From Porphyridium purpureum (taxonomy: Eukaryota; Rhodophyta; Bangiophyceae; Porphyridiales; Porphyridiaceae), in NCBI GenBank assembly GCA_008690995.1, contig VRMN01000020.1, forward strand, positions 101,935-165,934: 64,000 bases of DNA, written 5' to 3'. Under the pieces are notes generated by a model. It was not told the DNA's origin, made no database searches, and saw only the letters and a list, made by a program, of their open reading frames with translations. Shown in pieces: positions 2,183 to 61,609 of the stretch (its first letter is position 1; each line of letters starts with the position of its first letter). Both the position numbers and the translations under genes were made by a program.

Positions 2183-4990
2183 TCATTGCACAGGACGACG
2201 CATACGGTGACGTGAGCCTTGCTTCGGTTCGCCTCTCACATCTGATGGCCTCGAGAGACGCGCCCTCATGCAGAAATCGTTGCATCGATGAGCTGCGAAC
2301 CAGTCCATCATACCCTCCTCTCCTAGGTCCGTCAGCCCAAATTGGCCTTCTGTCTTGCTCAGAATCACCGGATCAGTGAACAGGAAGTAAGTCGAAGCAC
2401 CGTGCAGCTTCGGCCCACCCGGTTTACCCCTGTAGCCCTGCAAGTCACAAACGATATGCTCGCCTTTCGAGTGCACCCACGTCCAGTGGCTAAAGAAGTC
2501 TGGTACAGAGCCACTTTCGCTTGTCCACCCAGAATTACTGTTGAACTTTTCGTACTCTCCATGAACCTTCATCTCCACAAACATGTCTTCACCAGCAGTG
2601 ATGGCCAAGCCGCCATCAGGCACTCGCACGTCAATTGGACATTTCGCGATACTGCCCAGTCGGAAGTAGACCTTCAAACTCTCGCCATCCTTGGAAAGGT
2701 TGAAAGTCGCATTAAATGCATCAGAATAATCGCGACACAGCATTTGAAGCGTCCTCTCGTCCGCATCGATACGTACGCCTTGGGCATACAGATCCCGCTT
2801 CATCACCTTCAACACGAGTTCCGACCCGCATTCAAATCTGAGCGGAGTGCCACGCTTCACGACACCACCGAAAACCACGCGAGACGCACCTTCACCCAGC
2901 GGTTTCGTGTCCATCGTAATTGCTCCCGAATCAATGAGTAGATCCACGGTCAGAGCACTAATAAACATGTCGAGAGGAACGAACTGGACGACAACTGTTG
3001 TCCGCGCAGAGCGTGCGTCTGATCTAAGATCTCGCTTTGTCTCATAGTTCACCGCACCGACCTTGAGGGCTTCAAACATTGATGCCACGGAATCCAGATG
3101 TATCTCACGAAATCTTGCCAGCTCGGCCTGAACTCGCTGATCCGCATTGTCTGTGCCTACGTTATTCTCATTTCCCCAAGGTATAAAGGCAAGGTATACT
3201 TTTGCGGGAAAAAACAGTTCCTTCACGTTCTTCCCAGCTCCATGCGACGAAGTAGGCTTTCCAACAAAGTGTAGTCTTCTCGTGCTGCCTCTGGTATACC
3301 TTGCGAATATTCTGCACATGGACGCTTCGGCAACTTGGCGCAGAACAGCTGTAGACAGATCGAGAAGCGCCTTTTCCTTCGCCGACACATCGTTTCCAGA
3401 CGCTAGGCCTTTGGCGAGCTCTTGACGCTCAATATCAAACTGCAGGCGGAACTTTGTGGTGATAATATTATTTGTCGACGCCCAAGACAACAATTCCTCG
3501 CGACGCGTGCGTGCGGCTTCGGTCTCGATCTCACAGTCTGGATCATACTCGGCGTCGAGGGCGAACCAGCGCTTTGGCGGTGGAACTGAGATGCCGAAAG
3601 ACTCTAACACCTTGGATTGGCTCTCCACCAGTCGTGTCAAGCTTTCGCCTTTAATCGCACGCTTCTTGGCAACTTTCGGGTTGAGAGTCCATTTCGTCAG
3701 CACAACACCCATCACCTCATGGGCATCGTCCCCGAACACTTCAACTGCAATCTCAAACAATTTCGCGTGCAACGGCGTCACGCGAGGGTTGGATGTGTCA
3801 ACAACCAACAGCACAGCGCATGCTGATTGGTCCCCACTGAGAAATGTCTTGAACTCGTGCAACACTTCCACGTCTGTGCCGGACGAGTCCGAGAAGCCAG
3901 GCGTATCCACACAGTTCAATCGAGTTCCTTTGAAGTCGAGTGAAAGAGACAGGAGCTCTTTGGTGTCAGACTCAATGCCGTGGCTGATGTGGAAGGCGCT
4001 ACTGTCATTGGCGGCCAAGGACGCGCCATCCACCAGAAAAGAAGCCAAACTTGATGTGCCCGCGCCTGTCGTACCCAGCAGGAAAATATTCCTTGGGTTT
4101 TTGCTCGCTGATGTCAACTGACGAACGAGGTTTGAGTCTGTGCTAGCTGCTACAGGTGCGTGTATACCGTGATTCGCGTCTTCAGCTTGATTCACTAGCG
4201 GCACGTCTGGATACAATGGATAAAGTGGCGCAGGAAGGAGGGCCGTATCGAATGGCGCCACGGCTGGCTTCGATGGCGCCGGGTCTGCATGCAATGGCGC
4301 GTCGTCTGCATACAATGACGCCTGGCCTGCATGCGATGGCGCGTCGTCTGCATGCAATGGCGCCTCGTCTGCATACAATGGCGCCGGGTCTGGATTCCAT
4401 GACTTCGCGTCATGCCAGGTCTCATCCGTAGAAGCATTCTCATAGGGAACCTCAACGGACGCACGTGTCGTCTCAAGATCTCCAACAGGGGCCCTTGCGG
4501 TTTGCGGTTCACAATGACCTGGATACCCATTGTTCGCACCAGATGTACCAGCCAAGGAGAAAGCATCCGCGGCATGGATCCCCGAGCTTGGAAAGCTTGT
4601 GACGGATTCTCTCGCACCAGAAACACGCGGACCATGCGGACCTGAAATTCTACGATATCGAGGATCTGTGTCGTAGTCCCTGCCTAAAGCCATGTTTCGG
4701 TACAAGATCTGATGGCTGACCGGGTCCTTCACCACAATCCACTTTTCACCGTTGAGGATGAAAATATGGCCTTCCGGCGGGTCCAATGACTTCTGATTGT
4801 GGGGACCTCCATTATAGACGGACTGCTTTCGGTCTTCGTCCCACTCCTCTCGATACGTAGGGTGGGTGGATGCATTGGAAATTGCAGACGGACACGAATC
4901 AGAATCGTACGCTTTGTTTGTGCGCACGTTTCGTGAAACCTGCTCGCGCGGGCGATCGCCAAGAGGCAGGTCGTGAATTTGCTGAGACAT
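2183..4990 (-). CDS. AIG1-type GTPase fused to an alpha-kinase (935 aa)
   Basis: The N-terminal 200 or so residues look disordered and are followed by 7-residue repeats of the APLHADD type. A GTPase-like domain of the AIG1/paraseptin kind starts near residue 300: Walker A is GTTGAGTSS (306-314), G3 is DTPG (362-365), followed by a VLTK G4-like motif. The middle part aligns by eye with the GTPase gene at 6098. Residues from about 690 to 912 form an alpha-kinase (MHCK/EF2K type): an N-lobe VLKVMKRD lysine, then GEYEKFNSNSGW, HIVCDLQG, TDPVILS and FGLTDLGEEGM followed by HRCNDFC, so the zinc-ligand His/Cys pattern is kept. Oddity: the Walker A lysine is Thr312 (codon ACA, one base from AAA), so nucleotide binding by the GTPase part may be weak or lost. 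The start is the first ATG of the frame. Known alpha-kinases are Ser/Thr kinases; substrate unknown here. Confidence 0.88.
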   Translation of the reverse strand: MSQQIHDLPLGDRPREQVSRNVRTNKAYDSDSCPSAISNASTHPTYREEWDEDRKQSVYNGGPHNQKSLDPPEGHIFILNGEKWIVVKDPVSHQILYRNMALGRDYDTDPRYRRISGPHGPRVSGARESVTSFPSSGIHAADAFSLAGTSGANNGYPGHCEPQTARAPVGDLETTRASVEVPYENASTDETWHDAKSWNPDPAPLYADEAPLHADDAPSHAGQASLYADDAPLHADPAPSKPAVAPFDTALLPAPLYPLYPDVPLVNQAEDANHGIHAPVAASTDSNLVRQLTSASKNPRNIFLLGTTGAGTSSLASFLVDGASLAANDSSAFHISHGIESDTKELLSLSLDFKGTRLNCVDTPGFSDSSGTDVEVLHEFKTFLSGDQSACAVLLVVDTSNPRVTPLHAKLFEIAVEVFGDDAHEVMGVVLTKWTLNPKVAKKRAIKGESLTRLVESQSKVLESFGISVPPPKRWFALDAEYDPDCEIETEAARTRREELLSWASTNNIITTKFRLQFDIERQELAKGLASGNDVSAKEKALLDLSTAVLRQVAEASMCRIFARYTRGSTRRLHFVGKPTSSHGAGKNVKELFFPAKVYLAFIPWGNENNVGTDNADQRVQAELARFREIHLDSVASMFEALKVGAVNYETKRDLRSDARSARTTVVVQFVPLDMFISALTVDLLIDSGAITMDTKPLGEGASRVVFGGVVKRGTPLRFECGSELVLKVMKRDLYAQGVRIDADERTLQMLCRDYSDAFNATFNLSKDGESLKVYFRLGSIAKCPIDVRVPDGGLAITAGEDMFVEMKVHGEYEKFNSNSGWTSESGSVPDFFSHWTWVHSKGEHIVCDLQGYRGKPGGPKLHGASTYFLFTDPVILSKTEGQFGLTDLGEEGMMDWFAAHRCNDFCMRARLSRPSDVRGEPKQGSRHRMRRPVQ
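4268..4390 (-). repeat. 21-bp coding tandem repeat
   Basis: About six imperfect copies of a 21-bp unit (on the plus strand, variants of GTCTGCATGCAATGGCGC) encode the 7-residue Ala/Asp/His repeats in the linker of the GTPase-alpha-kinase. The unit length keeps the frame, so copy number can vary without breaking the gene. Confidence 0.75.
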
Positions 4991-6097
4991 TGTTTCGCCT
5001 ATCTCTTTCTGATTTGGGTACCGACAAGCTTCCGGATAAAATTAGACACGTAGACCACGCAGCGAATGAGCGCCTACCTAGGCGTGCGAACCTGTCCGCT
5101 GCCACCCAACTTGATTCACGCACTCTTCACCGCTCCGCGAAGCTTGGCGAAGATATCTGACAGACGGAGCGCTAGGAAGGAGCGCTCGACATCCTCTAGT
5201 TATACTTGTTAGTCTGTATGCTTGGGATAGAAAGAGTCCGCCGTGCTGCGACAACTAGCTGCTAACCGTGAAATCATATGAAAGCAGGCGGTTAGAAGCG
5301 AGTAGATCGCGGATTGATGGCGCAGCCCGTTGTACTACCAAAATATCGCGTCTCCGTGATGTGGATGCGCCCCAAATTAATTTGCGATATGCCCTCGCAT
5401 TTTGCGTGTCAAAGGCGTGAGCTGTCCGGGCCTACGTGCGCCCTTTCTGCGGCGCTCCACACTACGCCTTCATTCCCACTTTTCCATGTGTTCACGCGAG
5501 TTGCCTTGCGAATCGCGTCCGTTGGCGTCATCCTTGTCGCGGCGTGGATTTCCGCCGTTATGGAATAATATTCCACACACCACGCTCATGATCATAACGA
5601 CCTACAGTTGGAGCGTGACCCACTGATAATCGTGTCCGTTTTTCAGTACTCACGGCTTCTGCCCTTTTCGCCTATAAAAAAGCGCCGGTGCTTTGTGGCT
5701 TTTTCTTTTTTCTTTTTTCTTTCTCAGCGTAGAATTTAGCACCGATGTGTCTCAAATTCACACGACGCGCGAGGAAAGAGACTCCGCACAGCAGCACTGT
5801 ATGCACGTGTCTGATAAGCGTTTCATTCTGGCGAGGATGGAACAGAAACGTGCGTTCCGCATAGGTCGCTGTGGGGTATAAAGAGGCGGGCAGTCTTGTC
5901 AGGCTGCTTTCACGAACACCACATCCGCGCGGGCGAGCGGGCGTGCAGCTGGGAATTATCGCGTAGACATTGATTTGCGCGAGCGAACACGGTCTTTGAC
6001 GAGCGTTGGGTCTCGGTTACTTGCGGAACGTAGTACGAGGCTTCCCTGCCCACAGTAGCGGAAGACTTGAGGAGCCCCGTTCGAAGACTGTGGTAGC
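4991..6097. other. Divergent intergenic region between two GTPase genes
   Basis: This 1.1-kb space separates the minus-strand GTPase-alpha-kinase from the plus-strand GTPase, so both promoters should lie here. I see TATA-like elements facing the plus-strand gene but no clear one for the minus-strand gene. No open frame here looks coding. Confidence 0.55.
5877..5883 (+). promoter_or_regulatory. TATA-like box upstream of the 6098 GTPase gene
   Basis: TATAAAG lies in a GC-rich setting about 215 bp before the ATG at 6098, a spacing similar to the TATA-like elements before the two DUF2254 genes. A second candidate, CTATAAAAAAG, lies at about 5672-5682. Confidence 0.5.
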
Positions 6098-7336
6098 ATG
6101 ATGGGTACGCTGCCACTCCAAATCATTTTGATTGGAGTGACCGGCGTAGGGAAAAGCACTCTTGCGAACACGATTGCGACTGGATTATCAAATGTTGATC
6201 CGGACGAGAGAGATAGACTGACCCAGATTTTCGCTGTCTGCAATGGCGCAGAGTCGTGTACGACCGCGACAAAGCGTGAAATAGTCAAACATAAAAGCCG
6301 AGAGCTCTCCATTGTCGATACGCCCGGGTTCATGGACACCTCGGGAAGCGACACAGGAATCATGCAGGCTTTTCGTGCATTTCTGAACAACAACCAGAAC
6401 GCCAGTGGTGTGTTGCTGGTACTCAACGCAACAGATTGTCGAATTACTGAGGTCCATCAAGCGATGTTTAGGACAGTTGGTGAAGTGTTTGGCAAGGAAG
6501 TTGGTCGGATTTTCGGAGTAGCCTTTACGCACATGTCGCAAAACGCAAAGGAAAAAAGGAAGCGTGAAGTCAAGGGCCAATCTGAGAAGTCGATGATTGC
6601 ATCTTGGACATCTGCGCTGAAGAGCAGAGATATACTTTGCCCCGCAAATGACAAGTGGTTCTTTTTGGATGCAGAGTTTGCACATGATGATAAAGACGAG
6701 GTGGTCTTTGCCCAAAAGGAACGCCAAAGACTGCTGGACTGGGCCCTTTCGAATCCTGTGGTGAAGACTGAGATGCGTCTCGAACTTGAGCAGAAACAGC
6801 AGGAATACCTTCACCTCGCTAGGCAGACCGGTGATATTAAGGATGCGATGCTCAAGCTCTCGAAAGACATCTTTGCACGACTGAAAGAACTCGTTGGTGT
6901 CGACAGGAGGTGGAGGCGACCACAAGGGAAAGAATATTTTGAGTTTCAGCCCAACAAGGGTGGAAATGCGATTATTGGGATACTAACCCTCGGCATGGAA
7001 GTCCAAGTTGACCGTTTCCGACTTTATTTCGAGGCGACTGACGGTGATGGGGACAATGCTGACGACGACTTGGTGGATCACTTTTTGACCATGACCACTG
7101 AACTTACGCTGCGCCAGATTGAGGCTATTATGAACAGGAAAAAAGTGGGGCTGCGCGACTTTCGCACATCAAGTTTGGTCAAGTATGGCGCCGTGCACAG
7201 GAATAATATCCTCAACATTACGCTTGTTTTGTGCGGAACGGGAGGTTTTGAAGCACTCGCCAAAGCTGCGGCTACTGCGGCAGACAGCATCCGAGCCACG
7301 AAGATGGGGAAGCCGAAAGAGGCATCGTGGAAGTGA
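6098..7336 (+). CDS. Stand-alone AIG1-like GTPase (412 aa)
   Basis: A P-loop GTPase with an intact Walker A, GVTGVGKST (residues 13-21), a threonine-rich switch I region (CTTATK), G3 DTPG (74-77) and a hydrophobic strand GVLLVLNATD before the G4 region. The order fits AIG1/GIMAP/Toc-type paraseptin GTPases. The roughly 180-residue C-terminal extension matches, by eye, the linker between GTPase and kinase in the gene at 2183-4990, so the two genes share a two-module core and this one lacks the kinase. The ATG at 6098 is the first after an in-frame stop at 6068 and is followed at once by a second ATG. No signal peptide or membrane segment is seen. It may partner or regulate the kinase-fused paralogue; that is inference. 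Confidence 0.85.
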   Translation: MMGTLPLQIILIGVTGVGKSTLANTIATGLSNVDPDERDRLTQIFAVCNGAESCTTATKREIVKHKSRELSIVDTPGFMDTSGSDTGIMQAFRAFLNNNQNASGVLLVLNATDCRITEVHQAMFRTVGEVFGKEVGRIFGVAFTHMSQNAKEKRKREVKGQSEKSMIASWTSALKSRDILCPANDKWFFLDAEFAHDDKDEVVFAQKERQRLLDWALSNPVVKTEMRLELEQKQQEYLHLARQTGDIKDAMLKLSKDIFARLKELVGVDRRWRRPQGKEYFEFQPNKGGNAIIGILTLGMEVQVDRFRLYFEATDGDGDNADDDLVDHFLTMTTELTLRQIEAIMNRKKVGLRDFRTSSLVKYGAVHRNNILNITLVLCGTGGFEALAKAAATAADSIRATKMGKPKEASWK

Positions 7337-32800: not shown

Positions 32801-34191
32801 CTTGCCTGAAGGCTTTGTATGGTCTGCCGGCTTCTGGCAGCGTGTATCAAGTTGACGCAATGAGAAAAATGTCGGCGCGAGGATGGAACGCAATGGAGAC
32901 GGAGATGAACACTTTTTATCGCGAGATCAACGGGCATAAGTTGAGTCTGACTTTGTATGTCGACGACGGCATAGTTACAGGGCCGCGTAAAGAAATCTGC
33001 GAAGTCCTGGACGAACTGAGGTCGGACTTCAGCATCACGAAGCCGGTGTGCTTCATCAATGCGGCGACGAAAGAGGTGCCCGCCCGTTTCCTCGGAATGA
33101 ATCTGTTCCTTGAAAACAACAAACTCATGCTCGAAAACAGCACCTATGCTAAGCTGATACTAGCGAGATACGTCGAATACTGCTTCAGCACAAAGCCAAG
33201 AAAAGTCACGACTCCCACCGTCGACACTGAAACCATCAAGAAGCTGATTGATGAAGGAGCGGCCAGTGGCGGGGAGACAGCACCTTGCACAGGTTGGCAA
33301 CGTGAAGCAATAGGCCGGCTGCTATGGTTGGCGAGAACGTCGAGGCCAGACATCTGTTACGCGGTGCACAGGCTCGCAACGTTCACGGACAAGTGGGACC
33401 AAGAAGCCGACGCACGATTAAGGAGAATACTCGCGTACCTTTACTATCACGTGGAATCTGTGCTGTGCCTCGAGGGCAACCTACGTGATGGGACTCCAGA
33501 TCTTTTATTGTTCACAGACTCGGACTGTGCAGGGTGCCTGCGGACTCGAAAATCAACGGGAGGATGGTGCGTTTTCCTGCTGGGCAGGCTTGTCGACTGG
33601 AACAGTAAGAGGCAAGGTCGCGCTGCCGTAAGTTCTACCGAGGCAGAGCTGGTTGCTCTACATGCTGGGACAACGCGGGGACTTCTTCCTTGCGCAAGCA
33701 TTGTGCGCAGCTTCTTCGGAAAGCAGCCGAGCTCCTCGACCTTCATCGACAACGAGGCCGCGCGTAGTGCGGTCAAGCGCGGCTACTCTACAGCCCTGAG
33801 GCATCTGGAGAGACATGACGGGGCAAGGCTTGCGGTTCTGAATGAAATATACGATGACATCGATGGCTCCGGTCTGTACTTCACACCGTCAGCAAGTAAC
33901 ATAGCAGACATTCTGACGAAGGACGTGAGCACTGACGTTTTCCGGCGTGCAAGAAAAGTTTTTCAGGTAGGAGTTGGTGTCGAGGGGGGGTGTTGGAATT
34001 CGACAACCCACTCCAACTCAAGAGGCACAGTTTCAGGTGACACGGTTTCGGATTACGCGGTTTCGGATTGCATGGTTTCAGGTGGCACGGTTTCGGACTA
34101 CACGGTTTCGGATTGCATGGTTTCCCGTGAAGACGATGAGCATAAAAGGGCGAGTGGAGCGCACGGAAGACGCGAGAGGCAAGAGACATAG
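29839..34191 (+). CDS. Copia gag-pol polyprotein (about 1,450 aa)
   Basis: Gag begins with a segment typical of copia elements (LNPYNYATWKTQMKM) and ends with a zinc knuckle CFRCQSEEHLIREC (30492-30533). The protease has IIDSGATSHMTP (DSG at 30817). The integrase has an HH-CC zinc finger and its D-D-E residues at 31387, 31576 and 31684. The reverse transcriptase has YVDD (32956-32967), and RNase H has a TDSD motif near 33516 and ends with NIADILTKDVS. No frameshift or stop interrupts it. The ATG at 29839 overlaps the last base of the LTR; the next ATG (29860, MDSGMARLN) is an alternative start. The last 67 residues are encoded inside the right LTR. Confidence 0.95.
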   Translation: MVSSLGNMDSGMARLNPYNYATWKTQMKMRLLEKQVWSAVVPLTEGVEDSSTGTDNMKALGLIGSAVEPALVSHIAHVESARDAWNVLQSVFQMSGAARGASLRRELHAMKLKAGQAINEYVAEAVRLRNEFIIAGISIDAQELNQALFAGLPGEYAIAEHMALVGGAQALESILPSLLLAEASINLKSEPRSAGEHGHGVALMAPSRQPRRQRRRLTCFRCQSEEHLIRECPHPPTTGAPYSSTHGTSHARLSLEPDAAIGSRNGEVVLACRVAVTRSYADVCAGRMAQSGRVAEEPAATSAFRAGNFTDAFHLDDQAKRCGFIIDSGATSHMTPNLELLCKTAPCEKNILVADGRRLTASLEGSVILGDGVRLDRVLYVKDLEASLLSVRQVVASGASVSFNEDACVISKGGRTVLTGTRSKLDGLYRVRETRKAFAASMTADKHWLWHGRFCHPSPSALQKTMSMVDGVDAEIVGEKVSMQESCTACLESKHSRRVFPATGTRAQAPLDLIHTDICGPISPPAHDGSKYFITFYDDATRLSVAQPIKNKDESFAVLTRTLKYLERQSGRKVRRIRSDNGGEFVSRKMEEWFADNGIAHELAPPYTPQMNGRAERLNRTLLEKLRTVLRASGMGKQLWNEALLAVNHARNRTAVDDLTCTPWQAFFGRRPDVSHLKVFGAKCIVLDTQAEKLDPRGKAGRIVGYGTRPHVYRVHLNEGIVVSTNVRVVSENGDPMQTTMGQVDCEDEDQDIPLDDEEASTESSIATVESGGVPTPSTPQDDSLGIVRNRVRGWQTETPSAFIKSTRSGRDIRMPTRYRADLCFLTQLVIDPDMLASKEAISARHRELETIKRFKTWEPTQVMEKREAEKIPGALFVRVKFVHALKNSELDGQAEWKARLVAQGCVVRDATGRNVKDELEFPYVAPASLLAVKSNLVLARALGHDAGIFDFEAAYLGARLTGPPIFLILPREAWDLDWATLNQPVVPCLKALYGLPASGSVYQVDAMRKMSARGWNAMETEMNTFYREINGHKLSLTLYVDDGIVTGPRKEICEVLDELRSDFSITKPVCFINAATKEVPARFLGMNLFLENNKLMLENSTYAKLILARYVEYCFSTKPRKVTTPTVDTETIKKLIDEGAASGGETAPCTGWQREAIGRLLWLARTSRPDICYAVHRLATFTDKWDQEADARLRRILAYLYYHVESVLCLEGNLRDGTPDLLLFTDSDCAGCLRTRKSTGGWCVFLLGRLVDWNSKRQGRAAVSSTEAELVALHAGTTRGLLPCASIVRSFFGKQPSSSTFIDNEAARSAVKRGYSTALRHLERHDGARLAVLNEIYDDIDGSGLYFTPSASNIADILTKDVSTDVFRRARKVFQVGVGVEGGCWNSTTHSNSRGTVSGDTVSDYAVSDCMVSGGTVSDYTVSDCMVSREDDEHKRASGAHGRRERQET
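29840..29855 (+). other. Primer-binding site, fits initiator tRNA-Met
   Basis: TGGTATCATCGCTGGG directly follows the LTR. Its first eight bases equal the start of the plant copia site (TGGTATCAGAGC), which pairs with initiator tRNA-Met. The implied tRNA end ...CGATGATACCA would give an A1:U72 pair, a mark of eukaryotic initiator tRNA. Confidence 0.8.
33983..33990 (+). other. Polypurine tract
   Basis: AGGGGGGG directly precedes the right LTR, the standard place for plus-strand priming. Confidence 0.85.
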
Positions 34192-34340
34192 AGGCAGAGG
34201 TTGTTGGCTGAAGGTATAGAAGTAAACGGTGCTCCATTCGTTTACGCGAGCGAATCCCCGGCGAAGGCAGAGAGCCTGCGCGGTGCGCCGGGCACGGAGG
34301 ACGAGTGGCGAATTGCGCGAACGACGAGCCATTTTCAACA
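33991..34340 (+). repeat. Right (3') LTR, 350 bp
   Basis: Matches the left LTR base for base as far as can be read. It also encodes the C-terminal tail of the polyprotein, where the repeated GGTTTCGGATT words are read as TVSDYTVSDCMVS. Confidence 0.95.
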
Positions 34341-35912
34341 TGCGACTCCGTAATTAATGAGCGGAAGAATCACAGAGCTGAAAAGGGTCTTGAAATTAGG
34401 GAGTGGAGTGGCAAGTAGCACTCGCTTCGACGCATCCGTGGAACGAATGACTCGCGGCTCGCAGCGCAGGGTCGCAATCTGAGAAAGAAGTCTCTGCTGC
34501 CGATGAATGGATTCGATGGCAGTGTTCGGGTCGTTCACCGCAGGGCTCAGCGCTTTCAAGGCCACGTCCGTGATCTGCTGCAGTCCAAATTTGACGTCAT
34601 CCTCAGTGGAGCGGTCTTTGCCGAACTGAACACACGAAAGAATCAAGGAGGAAAGCAAGGCGCGGCTAATTCGCACGTGCGACTCCTCCCGATAGAACCA
34701 AATCCACGCGATGTGCGTGCCCTTTGCGATATATGTCCCAGGTCGCGGAAGAATGCGAATCCCGAATGCCCACTGTTGCGCCATACGAACGAGGGCAGTC
34801 TCAGAAACACCTAGCAGGTGGCCGTTCCGGCGCGCATGGAGCTTGTAGGCCCCTTTGGGAACAACAGGAAGCGTAACCGACGAATCTTGGGAGTTGTGTA
34901 AGTCCGTTTTAGAACGATGACCCATCCAGTGCCATTTCCTTCTTTTTCGATCTGCGTTCGTTTCAAACGGCGCATGGAAGCGAGCCACGGCCCTCTCAGT
35001 CTCGAAGGCGACGTCATCCATTAGCTTTGAAATACGCAAACTCCTCACCACGTAGTGGAGATAGTAGACCAAGCCGAGCACCGTGGCTATCACGTACAGC
35101 ACCAGAACATTGACAGCAACCGACGGCACGAAAGGATTGTGCTCAGCCGTCTCCGTGCTTAAAATCCCCGCAAACGAAAATGCAAACGTTCCCAGGAAAA
35201 TGCAGAGCACAATTTTGGTCGCGAGGCGGTTTGTCAAGCCCGTGAGCATCCTCGATGAATATGTCACACTTGCCACCTGGAAGGCCACGATGCACAGCGA
35301 AAACAAAATAGCGGTCAAGCTCAGCGCAAATCCTCCGACATAAATGAAAATGGCCAAGGCGTCCGAAGCGGTGCCGTTGAAATACCACACCAATGTGTCG
35401 CCTCCTTCCTTGATACCAGATGACCCCAGCAGACAAAAAAGATATCCAATGATAAAATTCAAGCCCAAAGCAAGGATTGGTAAGACCGCCATTGAACGTC
35501 TGGACCAGCGCAGTACATAAAAGGCTCGAAGCGATAGAAATACGGATAGGCGCTGCATTGCCAGCGACATTCGGAATGACCATGTCAAGCCGGGCTCACC
35601 TTCAGCATCCTGTTGAGGACCTCCTCTACCCCGCCCGCGCTGCGGGATACCAAATGACGACGATGAATTATCCTGCGCAGCCGAAGGTGGAGGCGCTTCT
35701 CCGTAGTCTTCTGCCCGAAATGTCGCAACATTCTTCAGCACCTTCGCTTGAAGTGAGGCAAAGTAATCATCATCATCATCGATATCTGTCCGAAGCGACG
35801 GGGATCTGTGAGCATGCCGATTCGACATAGTTTCACGCTCCGTCGGACTCCGATCTCCGCAATGCGGTACTTGGCATTGCTGTCTGTCACCCGTGTATAC
35901 ATTGTCCATCAT
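34341..35912 (-). pseudogene. 5' part of the split DUF2254 membrane-protein gene
   Basis: From ATG 35912 the frame encodes about 522 residues that match the intact paralogue at 37824: an acidic, disordered N-terminus with an Asp run, then four membrane segments (for example VLPILALGLNFIIGYLF) and the soluble DVKFGLQQITDVALKALSP region. At the TSD it runs into the LTR and stops after a few foreign residues. All membrane segments are kept, so a truncated protein lacking about 130 C-terminal residues could still be made. The N-terminal repeat of GAT codons (DIDDDDDYF) is absent from the paralogue. Confidence 0.92.
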
Positions 35913-37823: not shown

Positions 37824-39782
37824 CTATTCAAGATCAACAAAAGACTCACGACAGTCAATTCCTTCTGCCTGGCAAGTGTCTTGGGCGTCGCACTGCGCGG
37901 GATCCACCTCGGTGAGCTCTGATGAACCGGCGAGGCTTGTGTAAACCTTCGTCTCCATAACGTCCTCTTTCCCCCTCCTCAATGTGGCCATGGCTTTCTT
38001 TGTAGCATGTTTGATGGCATTGTAATTATGGTGATGGTGCTCGTACTCTTTGCAAGCCATCTTCAGCAAAACTTTCATGTGACTTATCACAAGCCCAATG
38101 CGAGATTCCAGCTCAGCCCTACTGCTCTCGTTCACCGCCAAAGCCAGCTGACGGTTGATGGCGTAGCCAATGTTGCCCAGCACAAATTGCAATTTCCTTG
38201 CGACCTGGACGTCTGCGACTCCGTAATTGATGAGCGGAAGAATCACAGAGTTGAAAAGGTTCTTGAAATTGGGGAGTGGAATGACAAGTAGCGCTCGCTT
38301 TGGCTTAACTGTGGAACGAATGACTCGCGGCTCGCAGCGCAAAATCGCAATCTGAGAAAGAAGTCTCTGCTGCCGATGAATGGCTTCGATGGCGGTGTTT
38401 GGATCGTTGACCGCAGGGCTCAGCGCTCTGATTGCCACATCCGTGATTTGCTGAAGTCCAAATTTGACATCATCCTGGGTGGAGCGGTCTTTGCCCAGCT
38501 TGAAACACGAAAGAATCAACGAGGAAAGCAACTTGGGGCAAACATTCGTTTTTGACCCGTCCGTGTGAAACCAAATCCACGCGATATGTGTGCCTTTTGT
38601 GATGTACGTCCCAGGTCGCGGAAGAATACGAATCGTGAAAGCCCACTTTTGCGCCATACGAGCGAGCGCAGTCTCAGAAACACCTAACAAGTGGCCGTCT
38701 CCGTCGGCATGAATTTTGTAAGCCCCATTGGGAACATCCGGAAGCTCAACCAACGAATCTTGCAAGCTGGACAAATCCGCTTCATGACGTTGTCGCAACC
38801 AGTGCCATTTTCTTTCGTTCCGGTCCGTGTTCGTGTCCAGTGGTGCATGGAAGTGAGCCACGGCTCTCTCCGTCTCAAGCGTAACATCATCCATCAGCTT
38901 TGAAATACGCAAACTCCTCACAACGTAGTGGAGGTAGTAGACCAAGCCGAGCACCGTGGCTATAACGTACAGCACAAGGACGTTGACGGCCACTGACGGC
39001 ACGAACGGATCTTCCTCAACCGTCTGTGTGCTCAAGATCCCTGCAAACGTATACGCAAATGTCCCCAGGAAAATACTGACTACCAGCTTGGTCGAGCGAC
39101 GGGTTGTCAAGCCCGTGAGCATCCTCGACGAATACGTTACGCTTGCCACCTGAAAGGCCACGATGCACAGCGAAAAGAGAATGGCAGTCAAGCTCAGCGC
39201 AAATCCTCCGACATAGATGAAGATCGCAAAGGCGTCCGCAGCTGTGCCGTTGAAATACCACGTCAATTTGTCGCCCCCATGCTTGATGCCAGAGGAGCCC
39301 ATCAGACAAAAAAGATATCCAATGATAAAATTCAAGACCAAAGCAAGGACAGGTATGACGAACATGGAACGCCCGAACCAGCGCAGAGCGTAAAAGGCGT
39401 TCAGCGATAGAAAAACGGATAGGTGCTGTATTCCCACCGACATTCGGAATGACCACGTCATGCTGTTCTCCCACTGCGCGTCCCCTTGAGGACCTACTGC
39501 ACCTCGCGCGCGCTTTGGGAGCCAAAACAACGACGCTGACTTCCGATTTGCTGCTAAAGGCGGCGGCGCTTCTCCGTAGTCATCTGGCGGAAGTGACAAA
39601 ATATTCTTCAGCACATCATCTTCCGGTTCATCGAATACAGAATCCACACAGCTGTCTCTGTGAACCGAGGGTGAGTTCTTAGCCTTCTGGTTTGACTTGG
39701 TCTCACGCTCCGTTGGAGTCGTACCGTCGCTGTCCGATTCTCGGAATGGCTGCCCCTCACAGTTGCATATGCTGTCCATCAT
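37824..39782 (-). CDS. DUF2254-type predicted membrane protein (652 aa)
   Basis: The first 110 residues are polar and probably cytosolic. Four membrane segments follow at about 140-162, 184-210, 231-251 and 262-288. A soluble part carries the family-like stretches RSLRISKLMDDV and DVKFGLQQITDVAIRALSP followed by AVNDPNTA, which are the hallmarks of DUF2254 (COG4325) proteins known mainly from bacteria. The C-terminal 150 residues are mostly helical. Function of the family is unknown. Its neighbour copy is disrupted by copia, so this is the only complete copy in the window. The ATG (MMDS) is conserved in both copies, which supports the start. Confidence 0.88.
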   Translation of the reverse strand: MMDSICNCEGQPFRESDSDGTTPTERETKSNQKAKNSPSVHRDSCVDSVFDEPEDDVLKNILSLPPDDYGEAPPPLAANRKSASLFWLPKRARGAVGPQGDAQWENSMTWSFRMSVGIQHLSVFLSLNAFYALRWFGRSMFVIPVLALVLNFIIGYLFCLMGSSGIKHGGDKLTWYFNGTAADAFAIFIYVGGFALSLTAILFSLCIVAFQVASVTYSSRMLTGLTTRRSTKLVVSIFLGTFAYTFAGILSTQTVEEDPFVPSVAVNVLVLYVIATVLGLVYYLHYVVRSLRISKLMDDVTLETERAVAHFHAPLDTNTDRNERKWHWLRQRHEADLSSLQDSLVELPDVPNGAYKIHADGDGHLLGVSETALARMAQKWAFTIRILPRPGTYITKGTHIAWIWFHTDGSKTNVCPKLLSSLILSCFKLGKDRSTQDDVKFGLQQITDVAIRALSPAVNDPNTAIEAIHRQQRLLSQIAILRCEPRVIRSTVKPKRALLVIPLPNFKNLFNSVILPLINYGVADVQVARKLQFVLGNIGYAINRQLALAVNESSRAELESRIGLVISHMKVLLKMACKEYEHHHHNYNAIKHATKKAMATLRRGKEDVMETKVYTSLAGSSELTEVDPAQCDAQDTCQAEGIDCRESFVDLE

Positions 39783-44721: not shown

Positions 44722-47700
44722 TTATATGCCAGCGTTTCGACGGATTTCATCGAGATTCACGCACGCTCCGTTGCTCAAACGAATCACCCGGATGAAGCAA
44801 TCAACGGGAATCGGTCCCGGGCAGCAAATGACATTATTTTGCGATCGGTAGAAGCGAAGACCGTGGCGAATGGCGCGCGCGACGTCAATGTAGATCACTA
44901 CATCGACACCACGACGAATTCCGCTACGAACCTCCGGGTCGTCGGGCAAGCCAACGGCCATTTGAATCGCATGTCGCTGCATTCGATTGAGGCCACCACT
45001 ACGCAGAATATTCAACAAAGAGTCATCATACGTGCCGTGCGCACACACGGGCACATCATCGGGATCGTAGATGGGCGTCAAAAGCTGCTCGGGGTCCACA
45101 GACGTAATCGTGTGTCCCTGATTGGCGCGAACCAAAAGCAAGCCGTCCTCCTCGATCACGGAAAAGCGCGTCTTCTCGTCTGCCGCTGCCGCTTGGAGCA
45201 CACTGTCTGCAGTAGCCGCCGGGAAGTCAAGGGCATCCAAGAGAGCGTCGACCGTGATGTAGCCATCGGGTCGAGTAGCTGCTCGGTGTCGTAGATACCA
45301 CGTCATGCTGCGCTGGAAGCGCTCCACGTCAAGTCGCGTCGAGCGATTTCCACCTGCGCCAGCACCGCGCTTGGCTTGGGCGTCAGCGCTGACCTCATCG
45401 ACATCAGTACCGTCGGGCCTTCGTCGACGGCGCAAAGCTGCAATTCGGTCGGCTTCGCGTAGCTGGTGAACACGAGTCAGCGTCTCGATCAATCGCAGAT
45501 CGTCTTGAGGAATCCAGACAGCTTCCAGGGCGTCTCCGAGCATATCGGGAGAGGAATCGCCAAGCTCTAGTTCAACGCGGCGCAGGAGCGGAAGAGGTTG
45601 TGGCTCAGCAGCTACATCGACACAAGCATGCCGAGCGATTGAGTCGCGCAAGCTCGGCACAAGCATGGCTACATATCTCTCCAGCGTTTCCGCATACACG
45701 TTGCCTGCCGATGGTCCGGAGCGCCCGACCAACCTTTGTACGACGCGATGCACAAAACTTGACGTAAACTCCCAATTGCTCAGATCCTCGGCACTGCCCG
45801 TTTGCTGATATTCCTTGGACATCTCCTTGTACAGAGGGACCGCAGTGGTACCTGCAATGAACGAGCCGGTCGGCGACGATCCATAGTACCTCGCCATCAG
45901 GCGGCCGCGAGCACCGCGAACATGATCCGTCAGCCTCAGTACCATGTCCGAACGGGATTCATTTGCAATCATCTCAAAGCCTTGTGTCATATCAACGACG
46001 GTTCCATCCGACGTATAGAACCACAGTGTCGAAGGTCCGAATGGTGTCGCAAAAGGCGGCATCGGCTCGAGGGGCACCCGCGCCCACGCCAGATCACTAC
46101 GAATCGTGTCGAGGGCCTGCTCAGATGTCACTATGCCAGCCGTGTTGACATTCATCTCGGCCGCGACATCGTTGGTGTAACTGCGAACCAGCTGGACGGC
46201 TTCGTACGAGCTGATGTCCGGGGACGTGATGCAGTCCAAGGTTGCCCTGACGACTAGCGATAAGCCGGGCACCACGAGATCTTCGATGGAGATCGCCAAC
46301 GGGTTCGCAAATGCGATTACGGCCTGAAGAGCGTGAGGCGGCAAAAGCGGTTCAAGAGATGCAACGAGTCGGCTGGTTCCAGCGATGGAGATATGAGCCC
46401 CTCGAGCGTCGACCCGGGTGTCGCAAATCGACGACAGGAGAGCGCTCAGGGAGGTTGCGCCCTGATCGGCCCAAACGTCAGCCCTGTTGTTCTGAAGCCA
46501 GTTCCTATGCATTTGAGGCACTGCCACCGCAATTCGGGCGAGCATCGATTGTCGAAGTGTCGCATTGGAGAATGCAGCGCGTGTCGGGAAGCGGTGCATG
46601 AGCCGCAAGATCACGGACGCCTCCTCGACCGACGAGTGCACGGTTAGGACCTCACTTCGCAGAATGGCAACGAGCGCTTCGTTGATCGGGCGACTGGCGT
46701 CTGGCGAGAGCCGTGAGCCCTCGGGAAGAATGACATGCTCCATAATCTGCACCGCAAACCATTCAAGCAGTCTCCCGGTAGGAGTCGTGCCGGCAGCTGC
46801 CCATTCCTGCGTCTCCAAGGTACGGAGGATGCTCGAGAGAGCGACAAGCCACACATGCTGCATCGACAGTCCGCTCATGAATACTAAGCACAAGCGCTCG
46901 AACACCACTCGTCGATTGTGCTCGTTCGCCAGGGGCACAATAGGGAGACACACCGACAAACGCTCGCGCGTCAGAGGCGAAGTGTCACTGCGCTCGATTC
47001 CGTCTGCAAACTCGAGCGCCACTAACAGTGGCTCGATAACCGCGTTTGCGGGGTACTGGCCGACGCGGAGCGCCTGATTGAGCGCAAAGTCACTCGTATT
47101 GTGCTCCGTGTCCGACATGGCTTTAAAGCACAAGGCGACCGGTCCTTCTTCATACAGAATCATATCTTCCTCTTGAGGGGCGCCCGACGCATCCAAACTG
47201 ACGAGCTCAGCGATCGCGTTGCGGTCGATGGTTCCAGCACGCGTTGCCCGATTGCTTAGCCGACCCAAACTCATCGCGCTCATTCCGGATATCGAGAGAG
47301 CCAACGCTGTGTCCAGAGCAGCATTGACAAGAGCTCGAGGGCCTCGGACGCTACGGCTGGCTTGTTCCCTGGCTTGCCTTTCTTGCGACGCACCAGTTGC
47401 AACTGCCTGGCGAATCTGCGCGGACAAGCTCTCGCGCTCACTGTCATTGGCCGCCAGGCGCAGACGCCGGAGCAATCCATAAACGCCGGTAGACGAATCA
47501 TCGCTACTGGCTTGCACTTGCGTCGCAACCCTCTGATCCAGAGAGACGAGCCAGCGGTTCAGCAGAATACGCCATTCTTCGAGTCTCCCGAGAACAAAAT
47601 AGGCCCGGGTTATATTCTCGATATCCGCCTGCGAAATCTGCGAGAGAGATTCAAAGTGATCTTGGACTCTTAGCAGAGCTTGCAGGTCAAGGAGGGACCC

Positions 47701-48423
47701 ATCAGCAAGGTAAATTGTGCCGGCATCCACCGGCTCGTAGACTCGTGATGGATAATCGAGCAGGTCGCTGGCTGAAACACTCGGGCAATCTTGCAGAACG
47801 AGCGTGTCCGTGAGTGGCGGTGGCTGAGGCAGATGATCGCCAAGCCAGTCTCCCTTGACGGCAATCAACCGCGAACACTCGGCATCAACAATTAGCACGG
47901 CCGCCGTGAATGCCGCCGTGAAATGAGCCATGACAACAGAGACGTTGAACTGAGACACGCAAGAGAGGTGGTTATCACCGGAAGCGAAAATTATGAGCAG
48001 AGATGGCAAATGCGCTGTCACCGAAGCATGGCGGGCCAATTCTTCCGTGCTCCACACTTGACCGTCCGTCATGAATACAAAACACGACGCATCGTCCGGT
48101 ACGAAGTTTTGGGGAGAGAAGATTGTCTGAGGTTCGGTACCTCCCGTTGATATCCAGCAAATTTCTCTCAAAGGCCTTGGAGCGTCGCACGTCGAGTTCC
48201 AGAGCGAGACCTTGTGCACGCCCAGACTCTGCACAAATCTTTGTGCAACCAGAAGCGGCGCGCCCCGTGTCGAATCACTGTTGTCGACCGCCGCAAACCC
48301 CGCGCCGTTCATGAGCACTGACAAGCGGGTCAGCTCCCGTCGAAGCTCACTTCTTGGCGCCAGGAAGACGCCATCGCTTGAGCTGGTAGCAACGTTCGTT
48401 ATCGTAAAAGTTGAATCACCCAT
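44722..48423 (-). CDS. vWA-like/large helical protein with C-terminal Tpt1 (KptA) domain (1,233 aa)
   Basis: The last 200 residues carry the RNA 2'-phosphotransferase pattern in order: TWYLRHRA (near 1043), RFSVIEEDGLLLVRANQGH (near 1085-1102), PVCAHGTYDDSLLNILRSGG, RSGIRRGVDVVIYID (near 1165) and FYRSQNNVI. The Arg-His, Arg and Arg residues used in catalysis appear to be kept. Known Tpt1 enzymes are short (200-300 aa) and remove the splice-junction 2'-phosphate from tRNA using NAD. Here the domain follows about 1,000 residues: an N-terminal vWA-like part (CFVFMTDGQVW near residue 115) and a long helical region of unknown family. I start at ATG 48423; the frame is open further upstream but has no ATG there. 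A role beyond tRNA splicing is possible but unproven. Confidence 0.85.
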   Translation of the reverse strand: MGDSTFTITNVATSSSDGVFLAPRSELRRELTRLSVLMNGAGFAAVDNSDSTRGAPLLVAQRFVQSLGVHKVSLWNSTCDAPRPLREICWISTGGTEPQTIFSPQNFVPDDASCFVFMTDGQVWSTEELARHASVTAHLPSLLIIFASGDNHLSCVSQFNVSVVMAHFTAAFTAAVLIVDAECSRLIAVKGDWLGDHLPQPPPLTDTLVLQDCPSVSASDLLDYPSRVYEPVDAGTIYLADGSLLDLQALLRVQDHFESLSQISQADIENITRAYFVLGRLEEWRILLNRWLVSLDQRVATQVQASSDDSSTGVYGLLRRLRLAANDSERESLSAQIRQAVATGASQERQAREQASRSVRGPRALVNAALDTALALSISGMSAMSLGRLSNRATRAGTIDRNAIAELVSLDASGAPQEEDMILYEEGPVALCFKAMSDTEHNTSDFALNQALRVGQYPANAVIEPLLVALEFADGIERSDTSPLTRERLSVCLPIVPLANEHNRRVVFERLCLVFMSGLSMQHVWLVALSSILRTLETQEWAAAGTTPTGRLLEWFAVQIMEHVILPEGSRLSPDASRPINEALVAILRSEVLTVHSSVEEASVILRLMHRFPTRAAFSNATLRQSMLARIAVAVPQMHRNWLQNNRADVWADQGATSLSALLSSICDTRVDARGAHISIAGTSRLVASLEPLLPPHALQAVIAFANPLAISIEDLVVPGLSLVVRATLDCITSPDISSYEAVQLVRSYTNDVAAEMNVNTAGIVTSEQALDTIRSDLAWARVPLEPMPPFATPFGPSTLWFYTSDGTVVDMTQGFEMIANESRSDMVLRLTDHVRGARGRLMARYYGSSPTGSFIAGTTAVPLYKEMSKEYQQTGSAEDLSNWEFTSSFVHRVVQRLVGRSGPSAGNVYAETLERYVAMLVPSLRDSIARHACVDVAAEPQPLPLLRRVELELGDSSPDMLGDALEAVWIPQDDLRLIETLTRVHQLREADRIAALRRRRRPDGTDVDEVSADAQAKRGAGAGGNRSTRLDVERFQRSMTWYLRHRAATRPDGYITVDALLDALDFPAATADSVLQAAAADEKTRFSVIEEDGLLLVRANQGHTITSVDPEQLLTPIYDPDDVPVCAHGTYDDSLLNILRSGGLNRMQRHAIQMAVGLPDDPEVRSGIRRGVDVVIYIDVARAIRHGLRFYRSQNNVICCPGPIPVDCFIRVIRLSNGACVNLDEIRRNAGI

Positions 48424-48723
48424 AGCTGCTGAGACTTGAGAGACGAGATGAAAAAAAGCGCCTTGAAAGTGTCCGAACACCAGGGTATTTGGGATATGAT
48501 TTCGTTTCTTGTGAGCGAAGAATGCGGGAACGAGCGTCCCGCTCCGTTCCCGGTGCACAACAAGGGCACTGACCCCTGCTGTGTCCACCGCCAGGCTCCC
48601 GCAAGGCAGAGGATTGATACAACTCCCGTTTCAACTCTACAATAAGCCAACTGTATAGTGTCGACACCATCAACTTCTTCGCTGCTCTTCCCCAATTCGC
48701 CGCACCTTTCGCGTGTGTGCTCT

Positions 48724-51560: not shown

Positions 51561-53520
51561 TTGTTTTGAGCTGGCGTGGGGGCAGAGGCCGGCGCGGCGG
51601 CGGTCGTCGTGGCGCTAGTGTCGCTGGTGGTGCTAGATTCAAGCTGTACGACGATGCTTCTGCCGGTGGCTATGTTTACGAGACACGAATAGACACTATG
51701 GGCAGTGACGCGCGAGGCTTAGCGGCCGATCTACCTCGACTGCTTCAGTGCAATGATAGTTCTGCATACGGAGCGTACGAGCAGCTTGTATCGCGTTGGT
51801 ATACGTTTGCTGCGAGCGGCGCGCCGCGCTTTGAGCTCAGCATCGCGCACGTTCAAAGTGACGCGTACGCTGCACCAAGCCGCGTAGGTGTCAGCTGCTT
51901 GGCGGGAGAGCTCGCGGTACCCGTAGAGCTACTGGCGTTGCGCGTACGCTGCGTCGCCTGTTGCGACATTCTGGCACGACGCTGCTGCATAATAATGCAT
52001 CAATTTGAAGAGCGTGCTCAAGGCTTTTCCAGCTCTGGCGATGCAGCAAGCACTTTCGGTTCTGACCGGCCGGTGTCAAAGAGTGGGCAACCTGCGGATG
52101 GCGCACCCGGGCGCGTGTATTCTAGAGCGGTCGTCCCCGTAGCTTTTGCGCGCCCATGATTCGTTGGAGTGGACGTTCGAGGCACGCTTTGAGCTCGGCC
52201 TGCCCGCATCTGGTCGTACGATTGAAGGAAGAAAGGCGCACATGATCCTGTGCGAGACTGTTCCGCGCATTGTTCAGCAAAGCTTTTTGTGGCTTTGCTT
52301 GGAGAAGGAGAATGACCATCAGACCGGGCGCCAACACAGCGCGCAGGCCGCGCATGAGCACGTGATCTGTACGAAAGATCAAGCCGCACTGCGAGGCATG
52401 CTGGAACCAGCTGGCCTCGTTGCTTTCGTTCTGCATGGTGCGAACGAGCTTCCGATGCCTTCAGCGTCTGCGCTCCCGTTTTCCTCGCCAGACGCGCTGC
52501 GCGTCAGCACGGTATTGCCGAGCGGCAAGACGCTGACCGGCATGGGCATTCGAAATGGAGTGAATCTTATTGTCGGAGGCGGCTTTCACGGCAAATCGAC
52601 GCTGTTGCAGGCGATCGAGCTGGGCGTATATGACCGTGTGCCCGGCGATGGGCGAGAGTTTGTCTCGTGCCTGGCTTTTGCGTCCAAAATGCGCGCTGAA
52701 GGTGGTCGCGCGGTGACGTCGCTCGACATGTCACCATTCATTTCAAACCTGCCGTTCGGGCGTGCCATAAAAAGGTTTTCATTGCCGCCGCATCTGGGAG
52801 TACGAGCCAAGCGGCGAATATCGCCTAAGCGCTGGCAATGGGATGTAACCTGCTTATCTTTGACGAGAACACGGGCGCGACCAACTTTATGTATCGAGAT
52901 GAGGTCATGTCGGCGCTCGTGGGTAAACACAACAAGCCGATCGCACCCTTTTTGGAACGTGTCCGCATGCTGTACAAATCGCACGGGATCTCGAGCCCGC
53001 TGTTGGTGGACAGCTGCGGTGCGTTCTTTGATGTTGCCGATACCGTGATCCTGATAGAGTCTGCTTCAAAGCATATGGCGTTTCAGACCAAGCGAAAAGC
53101 ATTTCGTGTGCCCCAGGTCGCGGTGGCGCGCAGCAGGTGAGCAGGGCCGTGCTAGACAATGACGCGGGACAATCGACCTCGCTGTTTTCGGACGGGAGGA
53201 TCCTTTTGCGCTCGCCGGCAGCGGCACGTTACAAATACAGGATACGGGGCGAATCTATTGTGGCTTGGAGGAGTTTGCCATGAAGCTTCGTGCGCTCGAG
53301 CAACTCGTTGAATTGGGACAGACGCGCGTGACCGCGGATGCTGTACGATTTGTGGAGATGGCGAGCGAGCAGACCGCGCCGATGCAAGGCTTGAAGGAGC
53401 TGGTTGCGCGTGTCGAGGCTGCGCTGGGCGCGAAGGGGATTGACGTCTTGGCTCCGAGCGGGTGGAAAGGTATTGGCTTCTACTCGCGGCCGCGATCAAC
53501 CGCTGGCGGCTTTTGAAAGT
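51561..53520 (+). pseudogene. ABC-class ATPase (PF09818/COG3044) pseudogene
   Basis: The family landmarks appear in order but in shifting frames. A Gly/Arg-rich start (WRGGRGRRGGGRRG) is followed by SSAYGAYEQLVSRW and AHVQSDAYAAPSRVGV. After a frame change near 52150 come RFELGLPASGRTIEGRKA, VAFVLHGANELP, GMGIRNGVNLIVGGGFHGKS (Walker A, about 52550-52600) and DRVPGDGREFVSC. After another change near 52780 come AASGSTSQAANIA, an in-frame TAA, CNLLIFDENTGATNFMYRD (Walker B) and FFDVADTVILIES. A last part, LRALEQLVELGQTRVTADAV and GIDVLAPSG, lies at 53285-53460. Three or more frameshifts and one nonsense codon make it inactive. The cellular role of this family is not established. Confidence 0.88.
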
Positions 53521-53848
53521 GTCTATCGACGCGTCCGTGAAGGACCAGACTTTGCTTAGAGGCATGTGTCTACGAAAGGCTTTAAAAAGCTTTGGACGCA
53601 CGTATCTGTGTTTTCGAAAAGCCACTTCCAAGTACCGAACCAAGCCGCACCGAGTGATCCCCGGGTTGGCCATTGAGGACCTTGCGCGACAGGCGGTTTC
53701 TGCTTTGCGCGGGAGTCGGTGACCACCGCGCACGAGCTGTCCCGCTCGCGCTATCCGCGCACTGTCAGCTGGACCCTGCGCCGTTCACGCCGTACGGCGG
53801 GAGCCCCTTCTCCGGCCGGTAACAAGTGTACGCAACGGTCCCTTTTGA
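53521..53848. other. Possible 3' tail of the ATPase pseudogene, then intergenic DNA
   Basis: An open frame continues to 53722 with a basic, helical product (ALKSFGRTYLCFRKATSKY) that could be the old C-terminus. After that nothing is recognised. Confidence 0.35.
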
Positions 53849-54190
53849 ACAGGCATGCCCGAGAGAACGGTGGGGATGTTGTTACCAAAGGTGAGCGCCA
53901 TAATGATCTGTGACGAAAGACTGTTCTTCTTCTGAATCACCTGGCTTCCTCTACTGGCGTCCCACGCATGCAAATGTGGGGAGCGGCGCTTTATACATAT
54001 TGCGGCGCCGAGCCCGGCAGAGAAACGTGAAGGCAATGTGTGCCGCGTATGCGAATGTGAACCTCCCTAGAGCAATCGCACAGCAGGCCGGACGGGTTAC
54101 GACGCCGTGCAAACAGAGCGAGTGGTCGATACGCCCCCCTGCATGCCTGGCGCCTACCGAATTTCACGACACCAGGTGTTGCGCGCGTGA
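53849..54190 (-). repeat. Dispersed duplicate of a promoter and first codons, copy 2
   Basis: Matches 42979-43315. It carries TATAAA (minus strand, 53990-53995) 90 bp before an ATG at 53901 that opens MALTFGNNIPTVLSGMPVQ; the match ends there and the following frame is short. It touches the edge of the inverted kinase duplication. Confidence 0.75.
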
Positions 54191-55014
54191 CCGTAACACA
54201 TAAGCGCACATTGTTAAACAACGCGCGCTCAGGCGTTAATTAAGATCTGAGGTACAGCGCCCGTCTGGCGGAGTGTACTCCATTCCCAACGGCTGGACTG
54301 TACTTCCATTTCTTTAAATTCAGCGCGCCGCTCGCGGTCTATCAAAACGGCGCCGTTCAAGCACACCCGCGCGTGCTCCTTCCACGCGACCGCCACGGCC
54401 CGCCAAGCTGTACCCCACGCCTCCGCAAAAATCGCGAATCCGCGCCGCTGAGTGATAAACTCAGCCCAAGTCCCCTCGAAACTCGCGGCAGAATCGAAAA
54501 ACAGGCGTCGTGCGCGCGCTTGCGTTGCGCGTGCAGAAAGCGCGCCGTTTCGGTGTGCTTTGCAGGAGAGAAAAATAAAAGGAGGGAATGAAATTATCGC
54601 TCGGTTGCATATCAGAACATGAGCAGTTGCCTGGTGAGACGCGCCGCTGTTGATTTGGACAGCGCTCCGTTTGCCGCGCAGGACGCTGCGGAGGTGTGAG
54701 GTGTCGCATTCGGCACAAAACTGCTAGTCCTTTTGCGTGGGCAGGTTGCGTCCATAGAGACAGAGACGTCGGGGTACGCACAAAAGAGTGAAAAGCTGGG
54801 TCTGCGTTGCTCGGTCCTCCGGCTTGAAGAGTGGGAAGAGGTGAACGGGAAAACGAAGGGGTGCTTGTGCGGGTCGGCATCGTAACGTCGGCTTTCGTCC
54901 TTGGCTCGGGCCACGGCGTCGTGGATTGTTTGCATCCGGTGCTCACGGTGGATTACAAGCGAGTGTATTTTGGTGTTGTAAATCCGGTGAGGTAATCAAG
55001 CAACACACGGAGGA

Positions 55015-61600: not shown

Positions 61601-61609
61601 GCTGTCGCC

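Follow-up and report, generated by a model that had tools for sequence, protein, structure and literature searches.

A 64,000-nucleotide stretch of DNA from the red alga Porphyridium purpureum (the window, meaning the whole stretch that was analysed, which lies in contig C17 of the genome assembly) carries on its minus strand a gene in which an AIG1/GIMAP-type GTPase and an alpha-kinase are joined in a single frame. Judging from sequence, we put at roughly 0.5 the probability that this gene encodes a GTPase-controlled alpha-kinase and belongs to a conserved two-gene cassette with a dedicated GTPase partner. One gene of the cassette would supply a kinase-bearing GTPase; the other, divergent from the same intergenic region, would supply a kinase-less paralogue of the GTPase half. 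The reading is based on the domains and their order, on the conserved neighbour, on a P-loop lysine kept in three of the four fusion proteins and in all three partners, on an arginine at the finger position, and on a ratio of non-synonymous to synonymous substitution rates (dN/dS) that is lowest in the kinase. Coordinates are collected in Table 1.

A preliminary description of the locus, which left the strand unstated, had placed alpha-kinase and AIG1-type GTPase motifs in one 935-residue frame, and the domain search bears this out. The Pfam alpha-kinase profile (PF02816) matches residues 699-907 with an E-value of 1.3e-34 and 120.4 bits (cut-off 21.3), taking in profile positions 1-185 of 185; AIG1 (PF04548) matches residues 301-433 with an E-value of 2.1e-08 and 34.2 bits (cut-off 27), over profile positions 2-125 of 212. 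Both matches exceed the curated cut-offs, are far above chance as profile scores go, and leave neither the GTPase nor the alpha-kinase missing. Frame 1 of the plus strand contains many stops over the same interval. The GTPase-then-kinase order is common to the window copy, to two other copies in the same genome (on contigs C27 and C11) and to a protein of Erythrolobus australicus. Towards the N-terminus these proteins have a WW-like region, for which the Erythrolobus protein scores just under the Pfam cut-off (25.7 bits against 26.9) and the C11 copy marginally (14.2 bits); in the window copy no WW match was found by Pfam at E<=1. No PADLOC match was obtained with the fusion protein.

The C-terminal half has the features of a typical alpha-kinase. 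K728, which aligns with a lysine of MHCK-A, is invariant in all four fusions, and D849 and D873 are invariant in the seven aligned kinase rows, two of which are the near-identical C17 and C27 copies. These aspartates align with those of the MHCK-A motifs DIQG and TDP, which, at a spacing of ten residues, we take to be D756 and D766; according to the titles of Protein Data Bank (PDB) entries, MHCK-A D756A and D766A are inactive. Residues H835, H901, C903 and C907, the presumed zinc ligands (we take the H, H, C and C of the C-terminal part of alpha-kinases to be zinc-site residues), are likewise invariant in all seven rows. Compared with solved structures by phmmer, the C-terminal part finds the alpha-kinases of Entamoeba, MHCK-A, eEF2K, the TRP-channel kinase and ALPK1. 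A structural model of the kinase, built on an alignment of 7 sequences (mean predicted local distance difference test score, pLDDT, 77.0), has MHCK-A as its top Foldseek match (E 3.1e-13; template modelling score, TM, 0.66), and the best 43 of the 50 matches listed are alpha-kinases, including MHCK-A, the Entamoeba alpha-kinase, ChaK, eEF2K and ALPK1. By profile, catalytic residues, zinc-site residues and modelled fold the window protein is a member of the alpha-kinase family, with predicted activity, and the earlier claims of a fusion and of an intact kinase are supported.

In the GTPase half, the other fusions score 35.4 (C27), 43.8 (C11) and 38.5 bits (Erythrolobus) against AIG1, and phmmer relates the GTPase part to the solved structure of GIMAP4 (E 0.0002). 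The model built for residues 290-915 is of poor overall quality (mean pLDDT 51.9, predicted TM score 0.42), with ten-residue blocks 2-22 at pLDDT 56-91. When this model was used in Foldseek, rows 1-14 were all GIMAP structures (GIMAP7, 1, 2 and 4; TM by target 0.46-0.62), Toc34 entering only at row 15, followed by GIMAP5 at row 16. A G3 motif of the form DxxG is present, DTPG in the window copy and DAPG in Erythrolobus. Arg403, invariant in the aligned fusions and partners, falls where GIMAP7 has its GRYT arginine, a site that we take to be the arginine-finger position. Profile, modelled fold and G3 motif are those of an AIG1/GIMAP-type G domain, in which the P-loop lysine is lacking in the window copy.

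A six-frame search of the genome (22,164,627 bases in 46 contigs) gave three alpha-kinase matches, all of them copies of the fusion. The window copy and the older C11 paralogue are 68% identical. Between C17 and C11, dN/dS is 0.20 in the kinase, 0.37 in the GTPase, 0.49 in the linker and 0.97 in the N-terminus; between C27 and C11 the corresponding values are 0.15, 0.32, 0.59 and 0.99. Over this distance the kinase and GTPase domains look, from these ratios, to be under purifying selection, the kinase most of all. C17 and C27 are much closer: C17:71935-160254 and C27 share four collinear blocks, about 74 kb in total, at 98.6-99.7% identity. No match joins C17:87486-101933 to C27:72175-77764. 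Differences are unevenly spread: C17:127000-160254 has only 12, and other parts contain dense tracts of them. Within the compared part of C17, which excludes C17:1-71934, no match was found to the first 2000 bases of C27. The two regions may represent separate haplotypes or have arisen by recent duplication. The right end of the window is also collinear, at 94-98%, with contig C1 (C1:2356506-2364500, continuing to window position 63,900), so that the region is multi-copy, and C17 and C27 may be more than simple alleles. The RNA polymerase family PF00623 is expected in three nuclear polymerase subunits; it gives 3 matches in this assembly, not 6, and duplication of the whole assembly by haplotype is unsupported as far as this one family goes.

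The partner gene starts on the other side of an intergenic region that presumably holds both promoters, as predicted from the divergent arrangement. Its product, a stand-alone GTPase, matches the C27 fusion over residues 306-658, which take in the GTPase and much of the linker, at 106 identities in 358 positions (30%, E 1e-45). The divergent pair is kept at all three loci of this genome (C17, C27 and C11), the three Porphyridium loci from which the cassette is known, and the C17 and C11 partners are 87% identical. The genome search lists 13 AIG1 matches, of which the six strongest are the three fusion/partner pairs; the remaining seven, all weaker, lie on C46, on C45, on C2 (two) and on C11 (three). 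With the partner, PADLOC returned weak matches to LeoBC (E 1.3e-04) and mad8 (E 1.1e-03), over the part that holds the P-loop.

Outside this genome the same architecture was sought and found, among the matches listed, in the porphyridiacean red alga E. australicus (taxid 1077150), as one continuous protein in record MMETSP1353. The searches covered about 5.8 billion proteins and were limited to relatives sharing short words, only the best-sharing candidates being scored in two of the three queries. With the full-length protein, the best 7996 candidates yielded only the window protein itself; the kinase region (2518 candidates) added the Erythrolobus fusion and the protein P0003, and a profile rotated to kinase-then-GTPase order (best 7993 candidates) added P0004 and P0005. 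These last three are alpha-kinases for which no AIG1 domain is listed, so that among the matches listed the fusion is confined to the window and Erythrolobus proteins, both from the Porphyridiaceae. Its absence elsewhere is weak evidence, because the C11 copy from this very genome is not listed as an entry of its own, and the database or the word filter therefore misses members. No relative was found among genome contigs searched with the Erythrolobus fusion or among viral contigs searched with the window protein. Within the open-licence PMC papers, none was found that contains 'AIG1' and 'alpha-kinase' together (these spellings only), nor any on an AIG1/GIMAP-alpha-kinase fusion or a Porphyridium alpha-kinase, the other papers being judged mostly by title. 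This agrees with the preliminary description, which knew of no protein with this pairing: the architecture looks undescribed, although each of its domains is well known. The additional alpha-kinases have architectures of their own. P0003, a JGI metagenome protein of 593 amino acids (aa), combines an N-terminal part that resembles oligonucleotide cyclases of the CD-NTase/OAS type (E 1.4e-09 for PADLOC Cyclase) with its alpha-kinase (Pfam, E 6.1e-46), a pairing of which we know no description; P0004 (362 aa) is 46% identical to the red algal kinase over the aligned part and has a ZZ domain listed; P0005 carries TPR/SAM-type domains.

It had also been noted that Walker A of the window protein reads GTTGAGTSS, with Thr312 in place of lysine, and that the GTPase half may be a pseudo-GTPase sensor controlling an active kinase. 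The motif is confirmed in the window copy. The sensor does not hold as a design of the family, because the lysine is kept in three of the four fusions and the threonine is private and derived: codon 312 is ACA in the window copy and AAA in C27 and C11, the P-loops of the other fusions read GTTGAGKSS (C27), GMTGAGKST (C11) and GSSGAGKSS (Erythrolobus), the three neighbouring stand-alone GTPases all have the lysine, and comparison with C11 as the outgroup makes AAA the ancestral codon and ACA a change on the window copy only. By sequence comparison Thr312 is a derived change of this one copy and not a family trait. It is probably a recent change that weakens or abolishes nucleotide binding in the window copy alone, or else an assembly error; it may be a naturally occurring loss of function, a specialised variant that still works, or an error. 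If real, it might leave the kinase released from its own switch or unresponsive to it, or the copy might simply be a hypomorph. That the window copy works as a pseudo-GTPase sensor, regulating an active kinase while neither binding nor hydrolysing GTP, is quite doubtful, and such a role would concern this copy alone. The replaced lysine beside intact kinase residues would suit it, as would the septins, in which, according to one source, GTPase activity was lost several times and G domains without catalysis still pair, pseudo-GTPases still forming dimer interfaces (PMC10731463). The lysine is missing from only one fusion in four, however, and the nearest copy, 97% identical in protein sequence (residues 1-250 identical, all differences lying beyond), retains it. 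Moreover, the codon differences between these two copies, 27 non-synonymous and 14 synonymous (13 with another gap placement), are not distinguishable from neutral (p 0.14), and positive selection, with 27 of 41 differing codons non-synonymous, is unsupported. Twenty-three of 40 differing codons could be polarised with C11, the other 17, where C11 shows a gap or yet another codon, being left out; 9 non-synonymous and 2 synonymous changes are derived in the window copy against 6 and 6 in C27 (p 0.19), which is, if anything, a hint of relaxed constraint on the window copy, and no more. An A/C miscall in assembly or consensus between near-identical segments, so that no such protein exists, is unlikely. 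ACA and AAA differ by one base in what is probably a hybrid assembly, the published P. purpureum CCMP1328 assembly being described as built from Nanopore and Illumina reads, with 52 contigs and a size of 22.1 Mbp (PMC6811547). Mixing of consensus would be easy, because C17 and C27 are near-identical in their four blocks and C1 is collinear as well. Within the same gene, on the other hand, the copies differ at about 40 other codons and by a 7-residue indel (at residue 261, beyond the Ala/Pro/Asp/His-rich spacer), and they therefore look truly distinct.

For the GTPase-controlled kinase that we prefer, a mechanism may be sketched. The AIG1-type G domains of two fusions, or of a fusion and the partner, would pair in a nucleotide-dependent manner, bringing alpha-kinase domains together or releasing them; hydrolysis, aided by the arginine finger of the partner, would end the signal; and the WW-like N-termini may recruit proline-rich targets. 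Dimerisation, the direction of activation and the substrate of the fusion are what we infer here. Published accounts regard dimerisation as the likely control of GIMAP G domains, and GIMAP7 as a promoter of the hydrolysis carried out by GIMAP2 (PMC8201404); arginine fingers are reported for 'paraseptin' GTPases, TOC34/TOC159 and AIG1/GIMAP among them (PMC11238149). Several observations weigh against such a switch. The model spanning GTPase and kinase is too poor to place the two domains relative to each other. The G4 motif of the fusions reads TKWT, TRWS or TKLS, with no TKxD aspartate after T432, and the stand-alone partner has an insertion there relative to GIMAP7; with G4 atypical in both the fusions and the partners seen, guanine specificity is no more than putative. 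In the C11 copy, which retains the P-loop lysine, the residue corresponding to the conserved Gln851 of the catalytic loop is Arg (DLRG as against DLQG), at a position where the glutamine of other alpha-kinases assists in holding metal, so that kinase activity may vary among copies. A possible, though rather improbable, alternative is that the GTPase is no switch but a membrane or organelle scaffold, or an assembly module, that places a constitutively competent alpha-kinase. Its nearest folds are GIMAP and Toc structures, and membrane-bound GIMAPs are reported to have been proposed as scaffolds (PMC8201404); yet by eye, the only inspection made, the fusion has no evident hydrophobic membrane segment, and the fusion to a catalytic domain is kept at three loci and in a second genus, which makes control of the kinase by the GTPase likely, not certain. 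It is very improbable that two genes have been misread as one, given an uninterrupted frame in all three genomic copies and a continuous Erythrolobus protein from an MMETSP record, a set that we take to consist of transcriptomes; nothing was found in favour of this explanation.

Table 1. Coordinates of the fusion gene, its parts, its partner and its other genomic copies (window positions unless a contig is named).
Feature	Position	Strand	Remarks
Fusion gene	2183..4990	minus	935 aa, single frame; WW-like N-terminus, low-complexity spacer, AIG1-type GTPase, linker domain, alpha-kinase
WW-like N-terminal region	4658..4855	minus	residues 46-111
Ala/Pro/Asp/His-rich repetitive spacer	4271..4396	minus	about residues 199-240, judged by eye
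AIG1/GIMAP-type GTPase domain	3692..4090	minus	residues 301-433; Pfam and Foldseek
Walker A / G1 GTTGAGTSS	4049..4075	minus	residues 306-314; Thr312 codon ACA at 4055-4057
G3 motif DTPG	3896..3907	minus	residues 362-365
Arg403	3782..3784	minus	invariant in aligned fusions and partners; at GIMAP7 GRYT arginine position
Linker domain	2921..3400	minus	residues 531-690; partly common to stand-alone GTPase
Alpha-kinase domain	2270..2896	minus	residues 699-907; K728, H835, D849, Q851, D873, H901, C903, C907
Divergent intergenic region, fusion to partner	4991..6097	.	1107 bp
Stand-alone AIG1-type GTPase	6098..7336	plus	412 aa, intact P-loop GVTGVGKST, no kinase; paralogue of fusion GTPase and linker
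Fusion copy	C27:79952-82780		942 aa; keeps P-loop Lys
Fusion copy (older paralogue)	C11:1822063-1824681	minus	872 aa; keeps P-loop Lys

Other genes of the window are of separate interest. A 1288-aa frame on the minus strand (44722-48588) ends in a KptA/Tpt1 RNA 2'-phosphotransferase domain (residues 1091-1258, E 6.9e-39), and the roughly 1090 residues ahead of it are without a Pfam match at E<=0.001. Two related protein kinase genes with Sel1 repeats, assigned by Pfam in the first and by eye in the second, lie at 12413-15385 (minus) and 55015-58317 (plus); the latter is split between the frames 55015-56355 and 56362-58317, which may reflect a disrupted copy or an artefact of assembly. An uninterrupted frame of 1487 codons (29728-34191, plus) resembles Ty1/Copia gag-pol by eye, two adjoining genes on the minus strand (34335-35912 and 37824-39782) encode DUF2254 membrane proteins, and a DUF285 repeat protein (18778-20358, plus) has a possible signal peptide by eye. 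Window positions 53115-63900 are collinear at 94-98% with C1:2356506-2367400; the last part has many C1 matches spaced 126 bp apart, with further matches on other contigs, and looks WD-repeat-like by eye.

If the GTPase does control the kinase, the fusion would represent an independent evolutionary route to the direct wiring of a GTPase switch to a kinase, in algae whose signalling is little known. The lysine and threonine copies offer natural versions of one kinase, the first with a normal P-loop and the second lacking it, that can be set side by side, and a caution that the loss of a catalytic residue in one copy says little before sister copies are checked. Both protein classes, AIG1/GIMAP and alpha-kinase, have immune roles in animals. 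As an unlikely but connected conjecture, the porphyridialean cassette might be a signalling system specific to that lineage and use its stand-alone GIMAP-type GTPase in trans as a GTPase-activating or licensing partner of the fusion, an independent analogue of GTPase-kinases such as LRRK2 and possibly a defence switch, in which copies varying in one half (the P-loop lysine in the window, the kinase-loop glutamine in C11) would give asymmetric pairs of kinase-competent and GTPase-competent subunits.

Compared with known systems, the fusion resembles the AIG1/GIMAP (IAN) GTPases (PF04548) in its Pfam match above cut-off, its predicted GIMAP fold and its arginine at the GRYT position, and differs from them in the attached kinase, the atypical G4 and, in the window copy, the missing P-loop lysine. 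Toc34/Toc159 and the septins have a related G-domain fold but no kinase, and Toc34 ranks below 14 GIMAP rows in the fold search. With the alpha-kinases MHCK-A, TRPM7/ChaK, eEF2K and ALPK1 (PF02816) it shares profile, catalytic and zinc-site residues and fold, although these proteins are not known to carry an AIG1-type GTPase themselves. In its proposed manner of working the fusion is like the ROCO proteins such as LRRK2, GTPase-kinase fusions in which both domains also share a single polypeptide and control is proposed to run through dimerisation of the G domain. ROCO proteins are defined by a Roc-COR pair with a TKL-type kinase; Pfam found no match to Roc, COR or Pkinase at E<=1 in the window protein, whose kinase is PF02816, and in the Erythrolobus fusion Roc reached no better than E 0.12. 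Because both the class of GTPase and the family of kinase differ, the fusion is at most convergent with the ROCO proteins and not a member of them.

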